From positions 1 through 26,004 of the IMG/VR virus record IMGVR_UViG_3300020436_000082: a stretch of 26,004 nucleotides of DNA; one strand, written 5' to 3'. Source of the stretch: a virus. Of this stretch, positions 371 to 20,307 are shown piece by piece (positions within the stretch are counted from its first letter, which is position 1; each line of letters starts with the position of its first letter). A program made the translations under genes and the position numbers. The notes beneath the pieces are model-generated. The model saw only the letters and a program-made list of their open reading frames with translations, was not told the DNA's origin and made no database searches.

Positions 371-1806
371 TATAATCTCCAACCTTGCGGTTTATTGCTA
401 TTAGCTCGATCCATGCCTTGCATCATTTCTTCGATTGTCGGCGGCCGCCAGATATCTTCTTCGATTTCTGGTTTTTTCCTGGTGTACGGCCTAGCCATGC
501 AAGCATAACGGATTTCGTCTGCACAATGATCCTCTGAATCGGTACAAACATCCTCAATTCGATGCTTGTCATGCACCAATACAGGAAGTGTACGAATTGT
601 GTCCGTACAGTTTTTAAATATGTAAAGCATCGGTTTACCATCATCGCCCATTAACCTCTGTCTTAGTTGATCCCATCCTGCAACGCGGCTATTATCCGCC
701 CTGCGAAACATTACGCCCATTTTGGATAATCGTTCTCCAATACTAGGCCCACCATCAAATTTCCATATACTCGGATCACCTACTGAAAAATCTATTCTTT
801 CATGCTGTTCTCTGGAGCGTATACCAGCTCCAACTTCCTCAGCAGATAATCGCAACCCACGATTTGGGCCTGCAGCACCATACCATTCTCGATAACGCAC
901 TAAAGCATTGTCTGGAATTGTATCGTGTCCTTGTGCAACAGCCCACCATCCTACACTAAAAGGTGCAGATGATCCCCAATCAAAAGAACGATATTTTGTC
1001 CAATATTCAGGTATTTCAAACGGCTGTATTACATGAAGATCGCGTTTCCATATATCGCCAAAAAACGATCCAACGACCAAATCCCAATCGCCAACACGCA
1101 ACGCCCTTGCTAATTCCTCTGGCAATCCACTAAAACTGCTTGCATAAGTTGGATCAATATATTTGTTATCTTCCATTCTTGATGGAATATACATTGTAAC
1201 CCATCCCTTATCTTTGGGATTGTCAGGATCACGCATTGTATGATCGTAAAAATAACTTTCTGATGGAGCAGGGTCAATATAAAGGGCTTTTAAATAATTA
1301 TGACTCTGCCCACCAGGATTTGCGGTCATTACCAATCGAGGGAGAAATGCAATTTGTTTTGGTTCATAACCGCCTAAGCGCATTCGTGATTTAATATATC
1401 CAAGCTGATAAGCAGTCATTTGTCCTGCTTCATCTATGCCTGCAAAATGAATTTCTGTGCCTTGTATTCGATCACAATCGGAATCACGCTCTAAATACTG
1501 AAATTGTATGGTTGATCCATTATGAAACGTAAAACGCTTTCGTGATTCATTATACTCGCCTAAACTTGGCGGCATTTCCTTGCGTAAGGGCTGTATATGG
1601 TTTGCATCCAACTCTGGCAAAGACCTGCGAAAAATAAACGCATTTAAACCAGGATTTTCTAAACAAAATGCTATACAATCCCATCGTAAGGCATGACTTT
1701 TGCCACCACCTGCCGCACCACCAAACAATATTTGTTTTGCTTTACATTGATGCAACAACACTTGTTTTGGCTGCGGATTATAGTCAAGTTTAATTGTTTT
1801 CGTCAT
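370..1806 (-). CDS. terL: Terminase large subunit (packaging ATPase/nuclease)
   Basis: A 478-residue protein with both halves of a phage packaging motor. The ATPase has a Walker A loop GGAAGGGKS at residues 29-37 and a Walker B with catalytic acid GIDEAG (D125, E126). The C-terminal RNase-H-like nuclease starts at FDWGSSAPFSVGWW (D276), the usual first metal-binding Asp. Length is normal for the family. It pumps DNA into the prohead through the portal and cuts concatemers. Its ATG at 1806 touches the stop of the upstream polyvalent-protein gene, and its stop overlaps the portal start. Unusually, two large effector-like genes and two tiny basic genes separate it from the small subunit. Confidence 0.95.
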   Translation of the reverse strand: MTKTIKLDYNPQPKQVLLHQCKAKQILFGGAAGGGKSHALRWDCIAFCLENPGLNAFIFRRSLPELDANHIQPLRKEMPPSLGEYNESRKRFTFHNGSTIQFQYLERDSDCDRIQGTEIHFAGIDEAGQMTAYQLGYIKSRMRLGGYEPKQIAFLPRLVMTANPGGQSHNYLKALYIDPAPSESYFYDHTMRDPDNPKDKGWVTMYIPSRMEDNKYIDPTYASSFSGLPEELARALRVGDWDLVVGSFFGDIWKRDLHVIQPFEIPEYWTKYRSFDWGSSAPFSVGWWAVAQGHDTIPDNALVRYREWYGAAGPNRGLRLSAEEVGAGIRSREQHERIDFSVGDPSIWKFDGGPSIGERLSKMGVMFRRADNSRVAGWDQLRQRLMGDDGKPMLYIFKNCTDTIRTLPVLVHDKHRIEDVCTDSEDHCADEIRYACMARPYTRKKPEIEEDIWRPPTIEEMMQGMDRANSNKPQGWRL

Positions 1807-3755
1807 TATGGTAGTAAGTTTTCATACCCTTGCGGCGGAGGTTCATCGATTTTTGGAAAATCATCAGGCGGAAATATAGAGCGTTCGTCTGGACTTCCCG
1901 ATCTTCTACCTACAAGTCTAGCTTCTGCTTCACCTAAAGTATCATAATAAATATTTCTACTAAAAATGGACTGAGGTTTAATTTGTGTAAGATTTGCTGC
2001 ATAAGGATAGCGAGGGTCTTTTTCATAAAATTCTAACGCCCTTTTGGCATCCCTGTATTTAAAAGCATCCTCTGACGTTTTATCACGCTTTCTTTCCGCT
2101 TTACCTATACGGCTTTTTATTTCTTTTGCTGTTAAAGTGTTTGCTAAATTTGCACCGCCTGCAGTTTCGTTTTCAATTTTCTTTGCAAGTTTTTCAAATG
2201 CCAGGCTAATATATTTTTCTCGCTCTGGTGTTTTGCGTTTTTTATAGGTTATTCCTGTTTCGTCAAAAATCTCACGCCGTATTTCATCGCTGTATTTATA
2301 CCAATAACCATTATTGAATAATAAACGCGGCTGATGGCTGTCTAATAACGCCTTTTCTCTAAAATACTTAATTCTATCTGCATGATACAAATTAGATAAT
2401 TCTGCTTGTAATCCTAAATTTTCATAAAAGTTATCGTTAGTTTCTTTTATAATTCTCTTTTTTTCATTAATTGCGTTTTGCAATCTATTACCAATATTAG
2501 GATCGATAGGATTTGCTCCTTTAGAAAAGCCCTCTATTTCTTGTACTGCGTGTTGTATTTCGTGAAATAAAGTATCTCTGATTACTTTTTTAAAATCTTT
2601 TGCTTTTATCTCTTTGGTTTTTAAATGTTGCAACCCACCTATTAAATTGGACAAGCTTATGCCTATTTCCTTATTTTTTTGACTAAAATAACCTCCCTCT
2701 GTAACAGGTTCTTTTTGATAAAAATTAACCTTATAATTTGCTAATTGTGGATAGGCTTCAAATAACTCAGGATGCTCTAATATCTCACCCAAAGTAGTAA
2801 TTTTACTTACTTTTCCGTTTTCTAGTTTTGAATCTGGAAACCTTATCTCAAAAGCATCGCTTGTAATTGTATCTGATAAGACAGGTTTGTTATCATCTAT
2901 GCCTAAGTTTATTTTAGCGGTGCTATCATCAATTTCAAAACGATACTGCTGATCTGGAAATTTAAACAAGCCTTTTCCATATTCTCGTTCTGTGTCTCTA
3001 AAAAAACTAAACGGCGTTGTTTTTTTCAATGCCTGGTCATAATCTTCAAAGATTTTTTGTGTGTTTAAATCACCTGAAAAAATAATTTTATCCAATTCAT
3101 TACTTAAACTTTTTTCCCTTTTTGTTAGGTCATCTGTTACCGCATCGCCTAATTGCATTCTTCCCATTGTTAGCATCTGCTGCACAGATTCTTTTTCTTT
3201 TTTTAATTGTTCGTATCGATTTAAGTTTTCAGTAATTTCCAGTCTTTTTTTCTTGTCTGGAAATGTCTTTGCAAGTTTGCCTGCAAAAACACCTATAGCA
3301 CCCTCTGGCACTACGCCTGGTAATTGCGATGTTAATGCACCTAAAACGCCAAACTCGGTTACAAAATCTGTGGCATCTGCAATAAATTGTGGATTATTTC
3401 GCATTTGATTTACATTACCATATTCGCCTTTTGCTATACGGCGCGGTATTGTAAAAGCCTTATAGGTTTCTTGCAAAAATTTTGGTACTGCAAATGTAAA
3501 CGCACCCTCTTTTGTTTCACCTATCGGCGCTAATTCGCCACGAAACGCCAGAGGTTCATTAGGTTTACCTGCTAAAGCTGCGCCAAAATCACTTAGTCCC
3601 TGTTTGAAAATTTGCCCCACATTTGTTTCACCAGATAATTCATCAACAGGAGGTTTTATTTTACCTGAAAAAAAACGACTGTCGCTAAAAGGGTCGTTTC
3701 GCTTTTCTTGCATTAGCCTTTGTGCCAACAAGCGTTGTTGTAACCCATTTACCAT
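1806..3755 (-). CDS. Large polyvalent protein with HExxH metallopeptidase-like domain (LPD23-like)
   Basis: A 649-residue protein. Residues 1-51 form a tag shared with the neighbouring gene at 3767-5449 (NGLQQRLLAQ, then PFSDSRFFSGKI). A Phe/Ala/Gly-rich part follows, then a coiled, Lys/Glu-rich stretch at about 170-240. The second half holds LFHEIQHAVQEIEGF with the zinc-binding HEIQH near residues 395-399, and a C-terminal GEAEARLVGRR near residue 606 that could give a third ligand. This pairing is what I remember of the large-polyvalent-protein-associated domain LPD23 of phage and conjugative-element proteins that are delivered with DNA. I infer a virion-carried protease or protease-like effector acting early in the infected cell. 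Position between terS and terL supports packaging with DNA. The substrate is unknown. Confidence 0.7.
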   Translation of the reverse strand: MVNGLQQRLLAQRLMQEKRNDPFSDSRFFSGKIKPPVDELSGETNVGQIFKQGLSDFGAALAGKPNEPLAFRGELAPIGETKEGAFTFAVPKFLQETYKAFTIPRRIAKGEYGNVNQMRNNPQFIADATDFVTEFGVLGALTSQLPGVVPEGAIGVFAGKLAKTFPDKKKRLEITENLNRYEQLKKEKESVQQMLTMGRMQLGDAVTDDLTKREKSLSNELDKIIFSGDLNTQKIFEDYDQALKKTTPFSFFRDTEREYGKGLFKFPDQQYRFEIDDSTAKINLGIDDNKPVLSDTITSDAFEIRFPDSKLENGKVSKITTLGEILEHPELFEAYPQLANYKVNFYQKEPVTEGGYFSQKNKEIGISLSNLIGGLQHLKTKEIKAKDFKKVIRDTLFHEIQHAVQEIEGFSKGANPIDPNIGNRLQNAINEKKRIIKETNDNFYENLGLQAELSNLYHADRIKYFREKALLDSHQPRLLFNNGYWYKYSDEIRREIFDETGITYKKRKTPEREKYISLAFEKLAKKIENETAGGANLANTLTAKEIKSRIGKAERKRDKTSEDAFKYRDAKRALEFYEKDPRYPYAANLTQIKPQSIFSRNIYYDTLGEAEARLVGRRSGSPDERSIFPPDDFPKIDEPPPQGYENLLP

Positions 3756-3766
3756 AATAAACTCGT

Positions 3767-5449
3767 TTAATTGTTTTCGTCATCTTTAAAAATGCTTGCG
3801 CTTTTTGCAAGACCTGTAACAGCCACAGGGCCAACAATGCCGTATTTGGCAAGTATGTTTATTAGGTTCTCGTCAAAGATGACGTAATTGCTTGACCTAT
3901 TTCCTATCTCTGTATTAGCCCAATCTTCAGCCTCTTTTTGAGTCTTGTATGGCTTACTTGTGGTAATTACTCGACCACTTCCTCCAAGTCCTGTCTGTCT
4001 GTTTGGGTCATCTAATACAATTTTTGCTTGAAACTGACCATCATCTAGTTTGTTAATACCTAACAACTCGCCACCGAATGTATTTCGTGATGCGTTATCT
4101 AAGTATTTTATGCCTTTGATGCCAAATTCGTTCATTATTTCAGATGCAATCTTTGGAGTGCTGCCTAATGGGTTTCCTATATAACCAGTAACAGTTTTAT
4201 CATCTAGCATTTTAGTATTTACTAATTTCAAAAAAGGATCTTCATTAATCATTTTTTCAAAATCAAGTTGGCTTATTTCTTTTTTTAGTCTTCTAACATT
4301 GTTATCTGCTATTTTATTTATACCTGCTTCAACTTGACTTTCCAATTCTTGTCTGAATAAACCACCACTAAGACTCAAATCTAATTTAAAAAATCTATTT
4401 TCAGCAAATGGCATAATTTCAATTATTTCTTGAACCTTATCTTGCATATTTTTAGATTGTTCATTAATCGGAATGTCATGGTTTATTAAATTATCAGTTA
4501 CAGTTTTTATATTAACTTTGTAGGTTTTACCCTTTAATTTCTTTAGTCCACCTTTTTCCTGTATATTTCTAAGTGTTATCAAATCCTGTTCTGCTAGCAT
4601 ACTAGCTTCAGTATTAGGATTGTTTTGAATAATTCTTTCGGCTCTATTTATAGGCTTTTCTATATTCCCATCATGGTCTAAAATTGATGTTCTTATGTTT
4701 GGATTTTTTATTCTTAGCGTACCATCTCCTTGAGGCTCATAAGGGTCAAACAACCTACCATCAGGAGTCTCAAATCTATCTTCTGAAATTTTGTTCTTAT
4801 AAAACTTCGCTATGTCTTCAGTATCAGTAAAATATAATCCATACCCAAAAACCTGTGCGCCTTCGCCTGTACCCATCTTATCCATGCGAAACTGGTCAAA
4901 GTCAGCACCACTTCCATGAAAAGCAATAATGCCAGGCTGTGTATCTGTTGGCGGTTCTACTTTGGCTATATCACCTGGTTTTACATCATCTACTGTCTTA
5001 GATGCCTTAGAACTCCCTTTTAATGCCTTACCTAACTGACTTGCGCCTTTCATTGCAGCGGCTGGAGCAACTAATACAGGCGCAAAAGGTGCTGCAGCTA
5101 ACATCACATCACCACCTGCACCAAGCGTTTGTAATCCTGCATCCAACAAATTACCCTGTCTTACATTCTCTGCAAAACTCGGTAATGTCTGTCCTGGATT
5201 CATAGGATCAGGTGCAAAACCCAAAACATCAGAAAATCCACTACCAGGTGTAAACATCGCTCCTGTTGCACCTACTGCATAAGGAATAGACGCACCTTTG
5301 AAAATTTGTTCTCTTGTAATATCCTCTGATAAATCCTCTGCAGGAGGCCTAATTTTGCCAGAAAAAAAACGGCTATCACTAAATGGATTATCCCTATTTT
5401 CTCGCATCAATCCTTGTGCTAACAAGCGCTGCTGTAATCCATTCGCCAT
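3767..5449 (-). CDS. Large polyvalent protein with ADP-ribosyltransferase-like domain (ART-PolyVal type)
   Basis: A 560-residue protein. Residues 1-51 repeat the tag of the next gene downstream (about 35 of 51 identical by eye). A Gly/Ala/Pro-rich hydrophobic part covers about 55-150. The catalytic-type domain follows: FHGSGADFDQF near residue 177, GYGLYFTDTEDIAKFYK, the later KGIKYLDNASRN, and a C-terminal NYVIFDENLINILAKYG. These are the signature blocks I know from ADP-ribosyltransferase domains of polyvalent proteins, where HGS binds NAD and the YVVFD-type end closes the domain. It probably modifies a host target after injection with phage DNA. Its ATG overlaps the stop of the poly-Lys gene (TAATG), and 11 bp separate it from the metallopeptidase gene. 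The target is unknown and activity is untested. Confidence 0.75.
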   Translation of the reverse strand: MANGLQQRLLAQGLMRENRDNPFSDSRFFSGKIRPPAEDLSEDITREQIFKGASIPYAVGATGAMFTPGSGFSDVLGFAPDPMNPGQTLPSFAENVRQGNLLDAGLQTLGAGGDVMLAAAPFAPVLVAPAAAMKGASQLGKALKGSSKASKTVDDVKPGDIAKVEPPTDTQPGIIAFHGSGADFDQFRMDKMGTGEGAQVFGYGLYFTDTEDIAKFYKNKISEDRFETPDGRLFDPYEPQGDGTLRIKNPNIRTSILDHDGNIEKPINRAERIIQNNPNTEASMLAEQDLITLRNIQEKGGLKKLKGKTYKVNIKTVTDNLINHDIPINEQSKNMQDKVQEIIEIMPFAENRFFKLDLSLSGGLFRQELESQVEAGINKIADNNVRRLKKEISQLDFEKMINEDPFLKLVNTKMLDDKTVTGYIGNPLGSTPKIASEIMNEFGIKGIKYLDNASRNTFGGELLGINKLDDGQFQAKIVLDDPNRQTGLGGSGRVITTSKPYKTQKEAEDWANTEIGNRSSNYVIFDENLINILAKYGIVGPVAVTGLAKSASIFKDDENN

Positions 5450-5732: not shown

Positions 5733-5743
5733 TGTTTTTCCTA

Positions 5744-5789
5744 TGCAACCTGTGCAACCAAAATTTTGTAGTGCAACCTGTGTGCAACC
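5744..5789. repeat. Four direct copies of TGCAACC in the terS downstream gap
   Basis: TGCAACC starts at 5744, 5753, 5772 and 5783, mostly in the longer form TGCAACCTGTG. More copies lie close by at 5524 and, inside terS, at 6122 and 6343, with reverse copies (GGTTGCA) at 6316 and 6362. A single heptamer should hardly occur once in this stretch by chance. Being clustered at and next to terS, these could be recognition sites for the small terminase (pac or cos). That is inference. Confidence 0.5.
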
Positions 5790-5869
5790 TTTTTTGTGTG
5801 TGTGCGTGTGTGTTTGATATACGTTTTCGTTGACTGCAAAACCTGCCAGGTGGGGTCATGCTATGGGGA

Positions 5870-6649: not shown

Positions 6650-7045
6650 TTAATTTATTTTTTCTGCTATTGTCATAATTGCTTCTTGCCATCGATATTT
6701 CGCTGTATCTTTGGAACAGCCAGCGACTGCAGCAATTTTACGCCAGGAATATTTTTTTGCTCTAGCCCAGATTAATCTACGTTGTTCGATACTACAATGG
6801 ATTAACCAATATAAACTTTGATCTGCACGATCAATTTGTTCAGGTGATGGTTTGGGTCTACTAATGGTATAGACATTATATCCATAAGCAAGACCTGGAT
6901 CGGTTTTAAATAAAGGCCAGGCATTCATTTTTTGTTTTCTAATTGGTGTAGGCAAGCGTTCAATGACATCAAAACATTCTTCAAAGCGTTCTTCAATTTC
7001 TAATAAACGATTTGTATAATCCGAAATATTGGATAGTGCATTCAT
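6650..7045 (-). CDS. HTH protein of the DUF6362 type
   Basis: The likely start is ATG at 7045 (MNALSNISDYTNRLLEIEER), which overlaps the initiator stop as ATGA, giving 131 residues; a longer upstream frame would run inside the initiator gene. The centre has PRPKPSPEQIDRADQSLYWL and the C-terminus has RRLIWARAKKYSWRKIAAVA followed by GCSKDTAKYRWQEAI, a helix-turn-helix with a conserved Trp-Ala-Arg block. From memory this matches DUF6362, common in alphaproteobacterial phages next to replication or packaging genes. Function is unknown; DNA binding is likely. It ends the replication gene run, 76 bp before terS. Confidence 0.7.
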   Translation of the reverse strand: MNALSNISDYTNRLLEIEERFEECFDVIERLPTPIRKQKMNAWPLFKTDPGLAYGYNVYTISRPKPSPEQIDRADQSLYWLIHCSIEQRRLIWARAKKYSWRKIAAVAGCSKDTAKYRWQEAIMTIAEKIN

Positions 7046-7854
7046 TCTAATTCTCTTAATAAATGTGTTGGGACTTTGGTTAAAGGATGATCTGGCGGCA
7101 TTCCCCAACTATGTTCGAGCCAGCTACCATCTGTTTTCCAGGATTTTAGCCGCGCCTTCCATAGCGATACAAGCGGATCAAAAAAATCTTTCTGATGAGC
7201 AACAATGACATTACCTATAATTTTGTGCAGATAATCGGATATATCGCCCTGCACATTTTGATGATAGGCACTTTTTATTGCATTAAGGATAAACATATCA
7301 CGTTCCTGTTTCTTCTTTATGCCCTGCTGTCCAAGTTTTGCATATAAACCAGAAATAATCTTCCCACTACGCTCGATGCTTGTGATTTGCCCTAACCATT
7401 GTTTGTAAAACTCGTACTCCTTAATAGACTCTTTTTTACCCTCTGAAGTGCCATTATTATTTATAATAATGGGTTCTTTGTATAATTCCTTTGTAGCGTC
7501 CCTATTTGAGGGACGGTAGCCGTCCCTGTTTTCGATACGGTCTTCATTTGAGGGACGGCTCAAATCATACACAAAATAATCATAATATTGGACGTTTCCA
7601 ACAAGACTTGTGGGTTGTTTTAAAACATAACCAAAAGCAATTAAATTACTCAATACATCATACCCTTTATTCTTTCCCCAACCAAAACGCTTGCGTATAT
7701 CGCCCATAGATAAGCGCCAGTTCGCAGGTTTACTTAATAAGTAGGTCAACATAGCTAAAGCATCTGCATTTAACCTGGAGTCATTTAAAAGATCATTAGG
7801 ATAAATGGTAAAATTTTCTTTTATAGTGCTGCGATTAATGAATTGATCGGTCAT
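7042..7854 (-). CDS. Phage replication initiator-like protein (winged-helix N-terminus)
   Basis: ATG at 7854 (MTDQFINRSTIKENFTIYPN) gives 270 residues; a longer frame would overlap the zinc-ribbon gene upstream. The N-terminal part (about 15-85) reads DLLNDSRLNADALAMLTYLL, then ANWRLSMGDIRKRFGWGKNK and VLSNLIAFGYVLKQ, a winged helix of the type that opens many phage replication initiators and DnaD/O-like proteins. A polar linker with two RPSNxD units follows, then a helical C-terminus. The DNA coding for the linker carries iteron-like repeats and a perfect palindrome, as in lambda O where the origin lies inside the gene. I infer that it binds its own gene and recruits the host helicase. No helicase or polymerase motif is present. 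Confidence 0.65.
   Translation of the reverse strand: MTDQFINRSTIKENFTIYPNDLLNDSRLNADALAMLTYLLSKPANWRLSMGDIRKRFGWGKNKGYDVLSNLIAFGYVLKQPTSLVGNVQYYDYFVYDLSRPSNEDRIENRDGYRPSNRDATKELYKEPIIINNNGTSEGKKESIKEYEFYKQWLGQITSIERSGKIISGLYAKLGQQGIKKKQERDMFILNAIKSAYHQNVQGDISDYLHKIIGNVIVAHQKDFFDPLVSLWKARLKSWKTDGSWLEHSWGMPPDHPLTKVPTHLLRELE
7451..7565. other. Candidate replication origin inside the initiator gene
   Basis: Direct copies of TTTGAGGGACGG lie at 7505-7516 and 7547-7558. Reverse copies of its core (CGTCCCT, CCGTCCCT) lie at 7497-7503 and 7520-7527. AGGGACGG and CCGTCCCT form a perfect 8-bp hairpin with a 3-base loop (7509-7527). The second copy sits in another dyad, ATTTGAG / CTCAAAT (7546-7565). 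Some 25 bp away is a perfect AT-rich palindrome with 10-bp arms CCATTATTAT / ATAATAATGG (7451-7472). GC-rich iterons beside an AT-rich element within an initiator gene is the classical origin layout. Confidence 0.6.
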
Positions 7855-7855
7855 A

Positions 7856-8032
7856 TTATTTTTTCTTATCCACTTCTTTTGTGTCATTGACCAACACGCC
7901 ACAAACTTTACAAAGGCGAACTAATTTTGTTTTACTGTTTTCTAAAATTGTTAATCTGCTTTCACATTTAAAACAAAGATTTTGCTTTAACAAAAAATCC
8001 CATTTCTTATCTATTTCAAACACTTTCGTCAT
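7856..8032 (-). CDS. Zinc-ribbon microprotein (58 residues)
   Basis: ATG at 8032 gives MTKVFEIDKKWDFLLKQNLC followed by FKCESRLTILENSKTKLVRL, then CKVCGVLVNDTKEVDKKK and a stop at 7856. CxxC pairs at residues 20-23 and 41-44 form a four-Cys zinc ribbon. The start overlaps the gene at 8016-8213 by 17 bp and the stop lies one base from the initiator ATG at 7854, so it fits the operon exactly. Such ribbons often bind DNA or a partner protein; its role in replication or regulation here is inferred. Confidence 0.7.
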   Translation of the reverse strand: MTKVFEIDKKWDFLLKQNLCFKCESRLTILENSKTKLVRLCKVCGVLVNDTKEVDKKK

Positions 8033-14375: not shown

Positions 14376-14425
14376 TATCAATGAGCCTATTATCAATGGG
14401 CTTAGAAATATTATCAATGGGCTTG
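14376..14425 (+). repeat. attP arm repeats, left group (three copies of TATCAATGGGCTTA-like motif)
   Basis: Copies lie at 14376-14389 (TATCAATGAGCCTA), 14391-14404 (TATCAATGGGCTTA) and 14412-14425 (TATCAATGGGCTTG), all in one orientation. A fourth lies on the other side of the att core at 14778-14791. Direct repeats on both sides of the core, roughly 150 bp away, are what arm-type integrase binding sites look like. Confidence 0.6.
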
Positions 14426-14434
14426 AAAAAATTA

Positions 14435-14454
14435 GGTGTCCCAGAGGTGTCCCA
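14435..14454 (+). repeat. GGTGTCCCA direct repeat, 11-bp period
   Basis: GGTGTCCCA occurs at 14435-14443 and 14446-14454, one helical turn apart. Related TAGTGTCCCA lies at 14736 and its inverse GGACACTA at 14690, on the other side of the core. One-turn spacing suggests cooperative binding, for example by an excision factor. Confidence 0.5.
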
Positions 14455-14581: not shown

Positions 14582-14632
14582 TGGTGAGCCGTAGAGGACT
14601 CGAACCTCTGACCCATTGATTAAAAGCCAATT
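14582..14632 (-). other. attP: attP core: 3' part of a tRNA-Lys(UUU) gene
   Basis: On the minus strand the sequence runs from the 5' side of an anticodon stem (CAATTGG), through loop CTTTTAA with anticodon TTT and closing TCAAT, to T-arm AGAGG-TTCGAGT-CCTCT, the 3' acceptor strand ACGGCTCA and an encoded CCA. The 5' half (acceptor 5' strand and D-arm) is absent: upstream bases are AT-rich phage sequence. Integrases often use tRNA 3' ends, and insertion here would restore an intact host tRNA. The exact upstream limit of identity with the host cannot be seen. Confidence 0.85.
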
Positions 14633-14689
14633 GTCTTGAAAAATATGTCATTGTTTTTATTACCTTTTTTAGAACCATTTTTTTTTCTA

Positions 14690-14743: not shown

Positions 14744-14777
14744 CACCATTTTTTTGCTTGGTGTCTTTTTTTATATT

Positions 14778-14791
14778 GTCAATGGGCTTAA
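14778..14791 (+). repeat. attP arm repeat, right copy (TGTCAATGGGCTTA)
   Basis: It differs from the left-side motif TATCAATGGGCTTA at one position and has the same orientation. It lies about 145 bp to the right of the tRNA core, as the nearest left copy lies about 155 bp to its left. Confidence 0.55.
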
Positions 14792-14803
14792 AATAACGCA
14801 CAT

Positions 14804-19062: not shown

Positions 19063-20307
19063 CTAGTCAGGTAGATTGATTTTGTTGCTAGTTGTGTTTT
19101 CATTACTTTTTTTCAAGTAATCATTAACATCTATCTTTGTTAAATTTTCTATTTTTCGACCTTGTTTAAAAGCATTTATGTTAGTTCCTAGTTCAATAAT
19201 TAATCTTTCAATATTAGCGCGAACTGTACTTCCTCTTGTTGTTATACCTGGAACAACTTGGCTTAAATAAAGATCAATTTCTTCTTGATTTGCTGTTGCT
19301 CCTGTTCTTTTTCTAAGTCTAAGGTCAACTAAATTTTGTATTGCATTATATAATCTTTGTGCATCACCACTTGTAGACCTACCCATTGATGATCCAGAAA
19401 GAACTGCTACACCTTGATTATACTCTCCACCCTGCAAATCACCATCAAACATAATATCTATGATTGTTTTTATATCATTTGACGCTGATGCAGCATCTGA
19501 TACAAAAGATGCTTCTTGTTCAGTCAATTTAGCCTGTTTTGTAACTATTGGTTCTTTAGCAATAGGTTCTTTAACTTGATTTTCATTACCATTTAGAATT
19601 GTATTTAAATCAATACCAGGTATTTGTAATACTTCTGTATTACCTGTAGTTGGATTTATTCTATTCAAATTTGTTGGTTTTCCTAAAATAGCAGCTAAAC
19701 CCTTAAGTTCTTGGTTTTCTGCATTTGTTCTATTGGGTTTGCCAGATAGTTCTATTGCTCGGTTCAGCATATTTGCCGAACTACCCATGCTACCTGTTTG
19801 TGAGCCGCTTATGTTTTTAATTGACCCACTTATAGATCCTTGTTGATAAACCTGACCTCTGCTTGTATCAAGTCCTCGTGCATTCGCTTGTTCTTTTGAT
19901 AAGGTTCTAAATGTTTCAGTAGGTTTTGTAGTTGCTTTTGTAGCTTCTGTAGATATTGCTATTGGCAATGCTTGTTCTGGAAACTGTCGTGCAAAATTAG
20001 CAAGAATAGGAGTTGAACTCATATCAATTCCGCTTAAAGCATTTGCTAATTGATTTTGATATTTGTCCTCTCGATCCGCTAAACGATCTCCTGCTTGTCT
20101 TTGTAAATATGCGCCTACTAATGCCTGTGATAATCTTCCTAGCCCTTGTAATGGTGTTCTAACAGGTGCTGTTGATAGGCCCTGTTGCATTAATTGTTGC
20201 CCTAAAATTCTTGATGGATCAGTTTGAAAACTTGGCATAAGTTGTTGAAAACGCATAGAAGGTTGCCTTCTTCTAGCCATAAGCGCTTGTGCAAGTGTGT
20301 TTACCAT
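19063..20307 (-). CDS. Putative virion/ejection protein, Gln/Asn-rich (414 residues)
   Basis: It starts at ATG 20307, whose GAGG ribosome binding site lies in the last codons of the gene upstream. The N-terminus MVNTLAQALMARRRQPSMRF is rich in Gln, Arg and Met; a Gln/Ser/Thr-rich middle and a helical C-terminal domain (EEIDLYLSQVVPGITTRG, VRANIERLIIELGTNINAFK) follow. The first 15 residues weakly resemble the tag of the two polyvalent proteins (MVNGLQQRLLAQ). The gene sits among presumed internal virion proteins. No named family is recognised with certainty. Confidence 0.6.
   Translation of the reverse strand: MVNTLAQALMARRRQPSMRFQQLMPSFQTDPSRILGQQLMQQGLSTAPVRTPLQGLGRLSQALVGAYLQRQAGDRLADREDKYQNQLANALSGIDMSSTPILANFARQFPEQALPIAISTEATKATTKPTETFRTLSKEQANARGLDTSRGQVYQQGSISGSIKNISGSQTGSMGSSANMLNRAIELSGKPNRTNAENQELKGLAAILGKPTNLNRINPTTGNTEVLQIPGIDLNTILNGNENQVKEPIAKEPIVTKQAKLTEQEASFVSDAASASNDIKTIIDIMFDGDLQGGEYNQGVAVLSGSSMGRSTSGDAQRLYNAIQNLVDLRLRKRTGATANQEEIDLYLSQVVPGITTRGSTVRANIERLIIELGTNINAFKQGRKIENLTKIDVNDYLKKSNENTTSNKINLPD

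Follow-up and report, generated by a model that had tools for sequence, protein, structure and literature searches.

Does the gene of a phage replication initiator also hold the origin at which its product acts? The question is raised by a short run of repeats and AT-rich DNA inside the initiator gene of virus record IMGVR_UViG_3300020436_000082, whose 26,004 bases we refer to as the window. The gene occupies 7042-7854 on the minus strand and encodes 270 amino acids from an ATG at 7854, and its open reading frame (ORF) itself opens at a GTG at 7902; the GTG start was used in an early reading of the relatives' linkers, the ATG start in the later analyses. We conclude that this stretch is very probably a phage replication origin, made up of boxes and an unwinding element, that lies inside its own initiator gene, among the codons for the linker.

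Four boxes carry the first part of the evidence. On the plus strand, the word TTTGAGGGACGG occurs twice, as box 1 at 7547-7558 (coding strand CCGTCCCTCAAA) and as box 3 at 7505-7516, together with two inverted boxes, box 2 (CCGTCCCT, 7520-7527) and box 4 (CGTCCCT, 7497-7503). Their CGTCCCT/AGGGACG cores, at 7497-7503, 7509-7515, 7521-7527, and 7551-7557, lie two per strand within 61 base pairs (bp) and are all the copies that exist in the 26,004 bp, where 0.45 would be expected and where none of 100 shuffles reached four. Boxes 2 and 3 form a perfect 8-bp hairpin, in which AGGGACGG at 7509-7516 pairs with CCGTCCCT at 7520-7527 across a loop of 3 nucleotides (nt). The initial annotation had described the duplicated iteron word, the reverse cores with their hairpin, and a linker peptide that repeats RPSNxD, and all of these are indeed present, the peptide repeats being RPSNED and RPSNRD. 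To separate DNA from peptide, we resampled the initiator gene 2000 times with the phage's own codon usage while keeping its protein. In none of the 2000 synonymous resamples did any 7-mer reach four copies within 70 nt, which clearly marks the boxes as features of the DNA itself, beyond codon constraint.

An AT-rich palindrome, the proposed unwinding element, lies near the boxes as had been claimed, at 7451-7472 (CCATTATTAT-TT-ATAATAATGG). It spans 22 bp, occurs once in the window, and is 24 bp away from the first core. In windows of 16 and 20 nt, its stability is the lowest in the gene, and it contains the rare proline codon CCC (5%). Its standing as a DNA-level feature is less certain than that of the boxes: the peptide PIIINNNG favors a palindrome, with IIINNN supplying much of it, and the palindrome is only moderately surprising because arms of 10 or more bp arose in 11 of the 2000 resamples.

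The encoded protein has a predicted layout in which these elements fall between two domains. An AlphaFold2 model of modest confidence (mean predicted local distance difference test, pLDDT, 59; block means of 55-81 across residues 21-100) places an N-terminal winged helix at residues about 19-97 (codons 7564-7800, minus strand; delimited with the model and VIA-align), followed by a disordered linker at residues 100-144 (7423-7557, minus strand; pLDDT below 50) and a helical C-terminal domain at residues 145-243 (7126-7422, minus strand). The boxes and the palindrome all lie in the codons of the disordered stretch, save that the outermost base of box 1 falls in the codon before it, in agreement with the initial annotation. 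Downstream of the initiator, at 6650-7045 on the minus strand, we found a DUF6362 protein (PF19889, E 3.2e-25).

Profile searches matched the initiator to PHROG families 4707, 428, 4221, and 270 (E 1.9e-8, 6.1e-8, 1.1e-5, and 0.0021), with the replication-initiation matches falling on its N-terminal part, and TP901-1 Rep gave a weak match. Pfam profiles run against the window initiator alone yielded nothing significant. HTH_36 (PF13730) did not match it at E 0.1, and matched 2 of 13 initiators of the close group at E 0.1 and 9 of 13 sequences from the wider alignment at E 0.01; the DnaD N-terminal domain (PF21984) matched 11 of 13 in the close group at E 0.1, weakly (best 9.6e-4), and the window initiator itself not at all. 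A Foldseek search of the model against the PDB returned no match at E up to 0.001, and a sequence search of the close-group initiators against the PDB none at E up to 1. VIA-align superposed the winged helix on RepA_N and DnaD N-domains with Z of 5.8-6.9 (4pql 6.9, 4pt7 6.6, 5kbj 6.1); the initiator N-domains 4pql, 4pt7, 5kbj, and 4pta and the DnaD structure 2v79 were listed among many similarly scored winged helices. Scores of 6-7 single out no one family, and the modeled N-domain is compatible with a RepA_N-like fold, which is not proof of one. Neither the Pfam nor the PDB search gave a sequence match to RepA_N initiators. Judged from these sequence matches, the initiator is a member of a large family of winged-helix phage initiators and not an orphan.

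Relatives allowed us to ask how selection acts on the linker. The window initiator as a query found none in viral or genome contigs, nor did the DUF6362 protein. The large terminase (terL), in turn, led to 41 viral loci, of which 13 carry the same initiator gene, each followed by a DUF6362 match (13/13); the 12 long copies that were aligned are 31-34% identical to the window's initiator. CGTCCCTCAAAT is absent from the relatives' linkers read, where TTATCGGATACGGCTGAGCCGTATACGG or variants of it stand at the same place. Codon choice sets these repeats apart: across 11 distinct linkers, 43 of 45 Ser/Thr/Pro codons inside the repeats end in CG, compared to 10 of 431 in the remainder of these genes. 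Moreover, the repeat copies within a linker change together: some linkers have GATACGG twice, others GACACGG twice, which differs from it only synonymously, and GAAGCGG also occurs. Such joint change is how a site read by one protein should behave. The initial annotation had proposed that loss of the repeats with retention of the protein would speak against an origin; the outcome is mixed, in that the exact word is missing from these relatives, while other repeats under DNA-level selection occupy its place.

We then surveyed the wider family with a codon-aware measure of repeat density, which counts 7-mers, direct or inverted, within 70 nt and scores them against synonymous shuffles (300 per gene for the discovery set, 150 for controls, 100 for the held-out set). 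After removal of genes under 180 amino acids and near-duplicates, the discovery set shrank from 60 to 42 genes and the held-out set from 160 loci to 75 genes, the latter coming from two further scans with smaller alignments. Duplicate contigs and two partial genes from a separate scan were also left out. The repeat peak exceeded the shuffles at p<0.05 in 33 of 42 genes of the discovery set and in 58 of 75 of the held-out set, compared to 15 of 125 control ORFs, a control count inflated by one ORF antisense to an initiator (L097). The peak fell in the linker (codons 95-145) in 37/42 discovery genes and in 73/75 held-out genes (for the latter, 20% expected by position). For 86 of the 117 genes, the least stable 40-nt stretch lay 20-110 nt beyond the repeats on the 3' side, and for only 1 at an equal distance on the 5' side (11.6 expected); the order of repeats followed by weak DNA is therefore a property of the family. 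The test thus shows candidate in-gene origins in most of this large phage family, and the arrangement appears, from these sequences, to be very common in it.

The linkers also share DNA words. Of the 75 held-out genes, 20 have CCGT..ACGG in the linker (5.7 expected) and 31 have CTACTAA there, a word first spotted in the discovery set (4.6 expected), whereas the rest of the same genes has no excess of the latter (3 vs 3.5 expected). CTACTAA is read in two codon phases (29 and 4 cases), as LLN/LLS or TTN/TTK, and its reverse complement is found in 0 of 75 held-out linkers, hence the word is strand-specific. CTACTA and CCG/CGG occur together in 44 genes; in 35 of these, CTACTA follows the mean CCG/CGG position on the 3' side, with a median spacing of 35 nt. 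When set beside the DnaA-trio consensus (taken from PMC10797057), the complement, 3'-GATGATT-5', reads as two trio-like triplets. Three successive [CT]TA triplets are not enriched (1/75 vs 0.9 expected), and this argues against a complete DnaA-trio array; runs of three TA[GA] triplets, in the opposite orientation, do show an excess (28/75 vs 5.0). It is a speculative and rather doubtful proposition that winged-helix phage initiators, in hosts of many phyla, share one in-gene layout with two DNA codes, namely CCGT..ACGG-type boxes and then a strand-specific CTACTAA that borders the unstable DNA some 35 nt downstream of them, perhaps with a trio-like opening as in chromosomes. Such a trio-like role may apply to the family and is not put forward for the window, which carries CTACAAA instead of CTACTAA at the corresponding place. 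Other held-out linker words that exceeded synonymous shuffles were AAATACT (44/75 vs 7.5), AGTAATA (25 vs 3.0), and TGTTGCA (21 vs 0.5). The DnaD recognition element, given as 5'-TnnT repeats in PMC10201434, was also considered; period-3 T runs were 3.98 vs 3.79 in shuffles for the discovery set and 4.28 vs 3.83 for the held-out set, and we do not claim it.

How might such an origin work? The N-terminal winged helix would bind the four CGTCCCT boxes, two per strand and paired as inverted repeats, and assembly of the initiator on them would strain and open the adjoining AT-rich palindrome on their 3' side on the coding strand. The C-terminal helical domain, held on a flexible tether, would then bring in the host replicative helicase or primase; we infer this recruitment, like the binding, the melting, and the origin activity itself, from the arrangement described above. 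No helicase or loader was seen among the ORFs near the gene, which were inspected by eye, with nine proteins profiled. In this scheme, the sequence of the linker would be free to be shaped by the DNA that encodes it.

Known replicons offer close parallels. According to PMC5703833, the rep gene of the RepA_N plasmid pSK41 has four Rep boxes near its middle, and these are bound by the winged helix at the N-terminus of Rep; the origin sequence codes for the linker domain, and the C-domain interacts with primase. The same source describes pPR9 as a chimera in which N-domain and origin region were jointly replaced by a phage-like (pfam13730) one and which still replicates. These replicons resemble the window in having boxes in mid-gene linker codons and differ from it in being plasmids, whereas the window is phage DNA. 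Closer in kind are the phages TP901-1, phiJB, phiC2, NIIg3.2, PHS3, phi3LM21, and Rivra, whose initiators belong to the same winged-helix family (phiJB being linked via NIIg3.2) and likewise carry repeats and then AT-rich DNA in their linker codons; the phiJB record even annotates a rep_origin there. Their repeat sequences differ from those of the window, and several have DnaD-type C-domains or a separate DnaC-like loader gene, none of which was seen in the window. SPP1, likened here for its origin location, has its oriL repeats inside initiator gene 38 (PMC6316719), but it possesses a further origin, oriR, as well as a loader and a helicase of its own. In lambda, too, the origin of the O protein lies in its own gene, but with a separate loader, P. 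In-gene origins are thus known from lambda O, SPP1 gene 38, the pSK41 and pPR9 rep genes, and the phiJB annotation, and the window very probably adds one. The initial annotation had proposed an origin in the gene of an apparently unrelated initiator. The origin stands as the best-supported reading, and the window initiator indeed has no Phage_rep_O match in Pfam at E up to 1, but "unrelated" was too strong for a member of a large winged-helix family with in-gene origins on record. Neither the family-wide codon test nor the CTACTAA element appears in the published accounts that we found; we recognized no family-wide account from titles and abstracts, which is no proof of its absence.

Several observations weigh against an origin at this place. 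None of the relatives read carries the window's exact word, and with the nearest relatives found at 31-34% identity its conservation is not directly measurable. With a slightly longer stability window, the least stable 40 nt of the gene lie elsewhere, in a near tie. In the survey, 9 of 42 discovery genes and 17 of 75 held-out genes missed p<0.05, and the sequences are related and not phylogenetically independent, so that the counts are not independent trials. GC skew, which the initial annotation had offered as a check, has no inflection at the elements and tracks gene direction; following the gene strand as it does, it is uninformative as an origin marker. The window has two further repeat clusters, at 5736-5820 (with a higher score) and at 14377-14452. 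That the origin is such a cluster, for example the four copies of TGTGCAACC at 5742-5789, with the linker repeats only a minor feature, seems quite improbable: the raw repeat count there of 42-43, compared to 37-38 for the linker, is partly owed to a GT run, and the cluster lies outside the initiator gene, in the gap that separates terS from the next long ORF, where packaging or regulatory sites are usual. The cluster at 14377-14452 flanks a tRNA end that resembles an attP.

The boxes could instead be an operator through which a winged-helix protein regulates its own gene or acts as a roadblock to downstream genes, with the origin elsewhere. We regard this as unlikely, even though winged-helix repressors are common among the initiator's fold neighbors and DUF6362 and terS follow the initiator on the same strand. 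The box word has no other copy in the window and so none at a promoter, an operator has no need of the unstable DNA that lies 3' of the repeats over the 117 genes, the matched families carry replication-initiator names, and the precedents in phiJB, pSK41, and SPP1 are origins. It is very unlikely that the repeats are a mere by-product of a low-complexity protein linker. While the linker peptide does itself repeat (RPSNxD) and the AT palindrome largely follows from PIIINNNG, peptide-preserving shuffles fail to yield the repeats, CG-ending codons are restricted to them, and CTACTAA is found in more than one codon phase.

Other features of the window deserve mention. A tRNA gene end at 14585-14636 (minus strand) reads like tRNA-Lys with anticodon TTT, is truncated at its 5' end, and scores 28.8 bits with the Rfam tRNA model against a 29-bit cutoff; it lies about 1.4 kb away from the integrase gene and is a likely attP core. 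A search with it for the host genome gave no exact match. Around the tRNA end lie three copies of a ATTATCAATGGGCTT-type repeat at 14387-14431 and a tandem AGGTGTCCCAG at 14773-14796, which are likely integrase arm sites. The four TGTGCAACC-type repeats at 5742-5789, followed by the GT run, are possibly a packaging or regulatory site, and the corresponding gap in related loci holds GGTTGCACA or GGTTGTCG..AACC strings. Two adjacent large genes at 1806-3755 and 3767-5449 (minus strand) share a near-identical N-terminal stretch, M.NGLQQRLLAQ.LM.E.R..PFSDSRFFSGKI, on differing bodies, and a looser form of it seems to begin the protein at 19063-20307 (minus strand) and, in relatives, an ORF after terS. 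This common stretch may be a delivery or virion-targeting tag.

For the origin proposed here in the linker codons, the analysis narrows the likely start of replication in an otherwise uncharacterized phage group to about 120 bp. If the boxes and CTACTAA prove functional, both the location of the origin and the specificity of the initiator would become predictable from sequence and could be tested on small plasmids.
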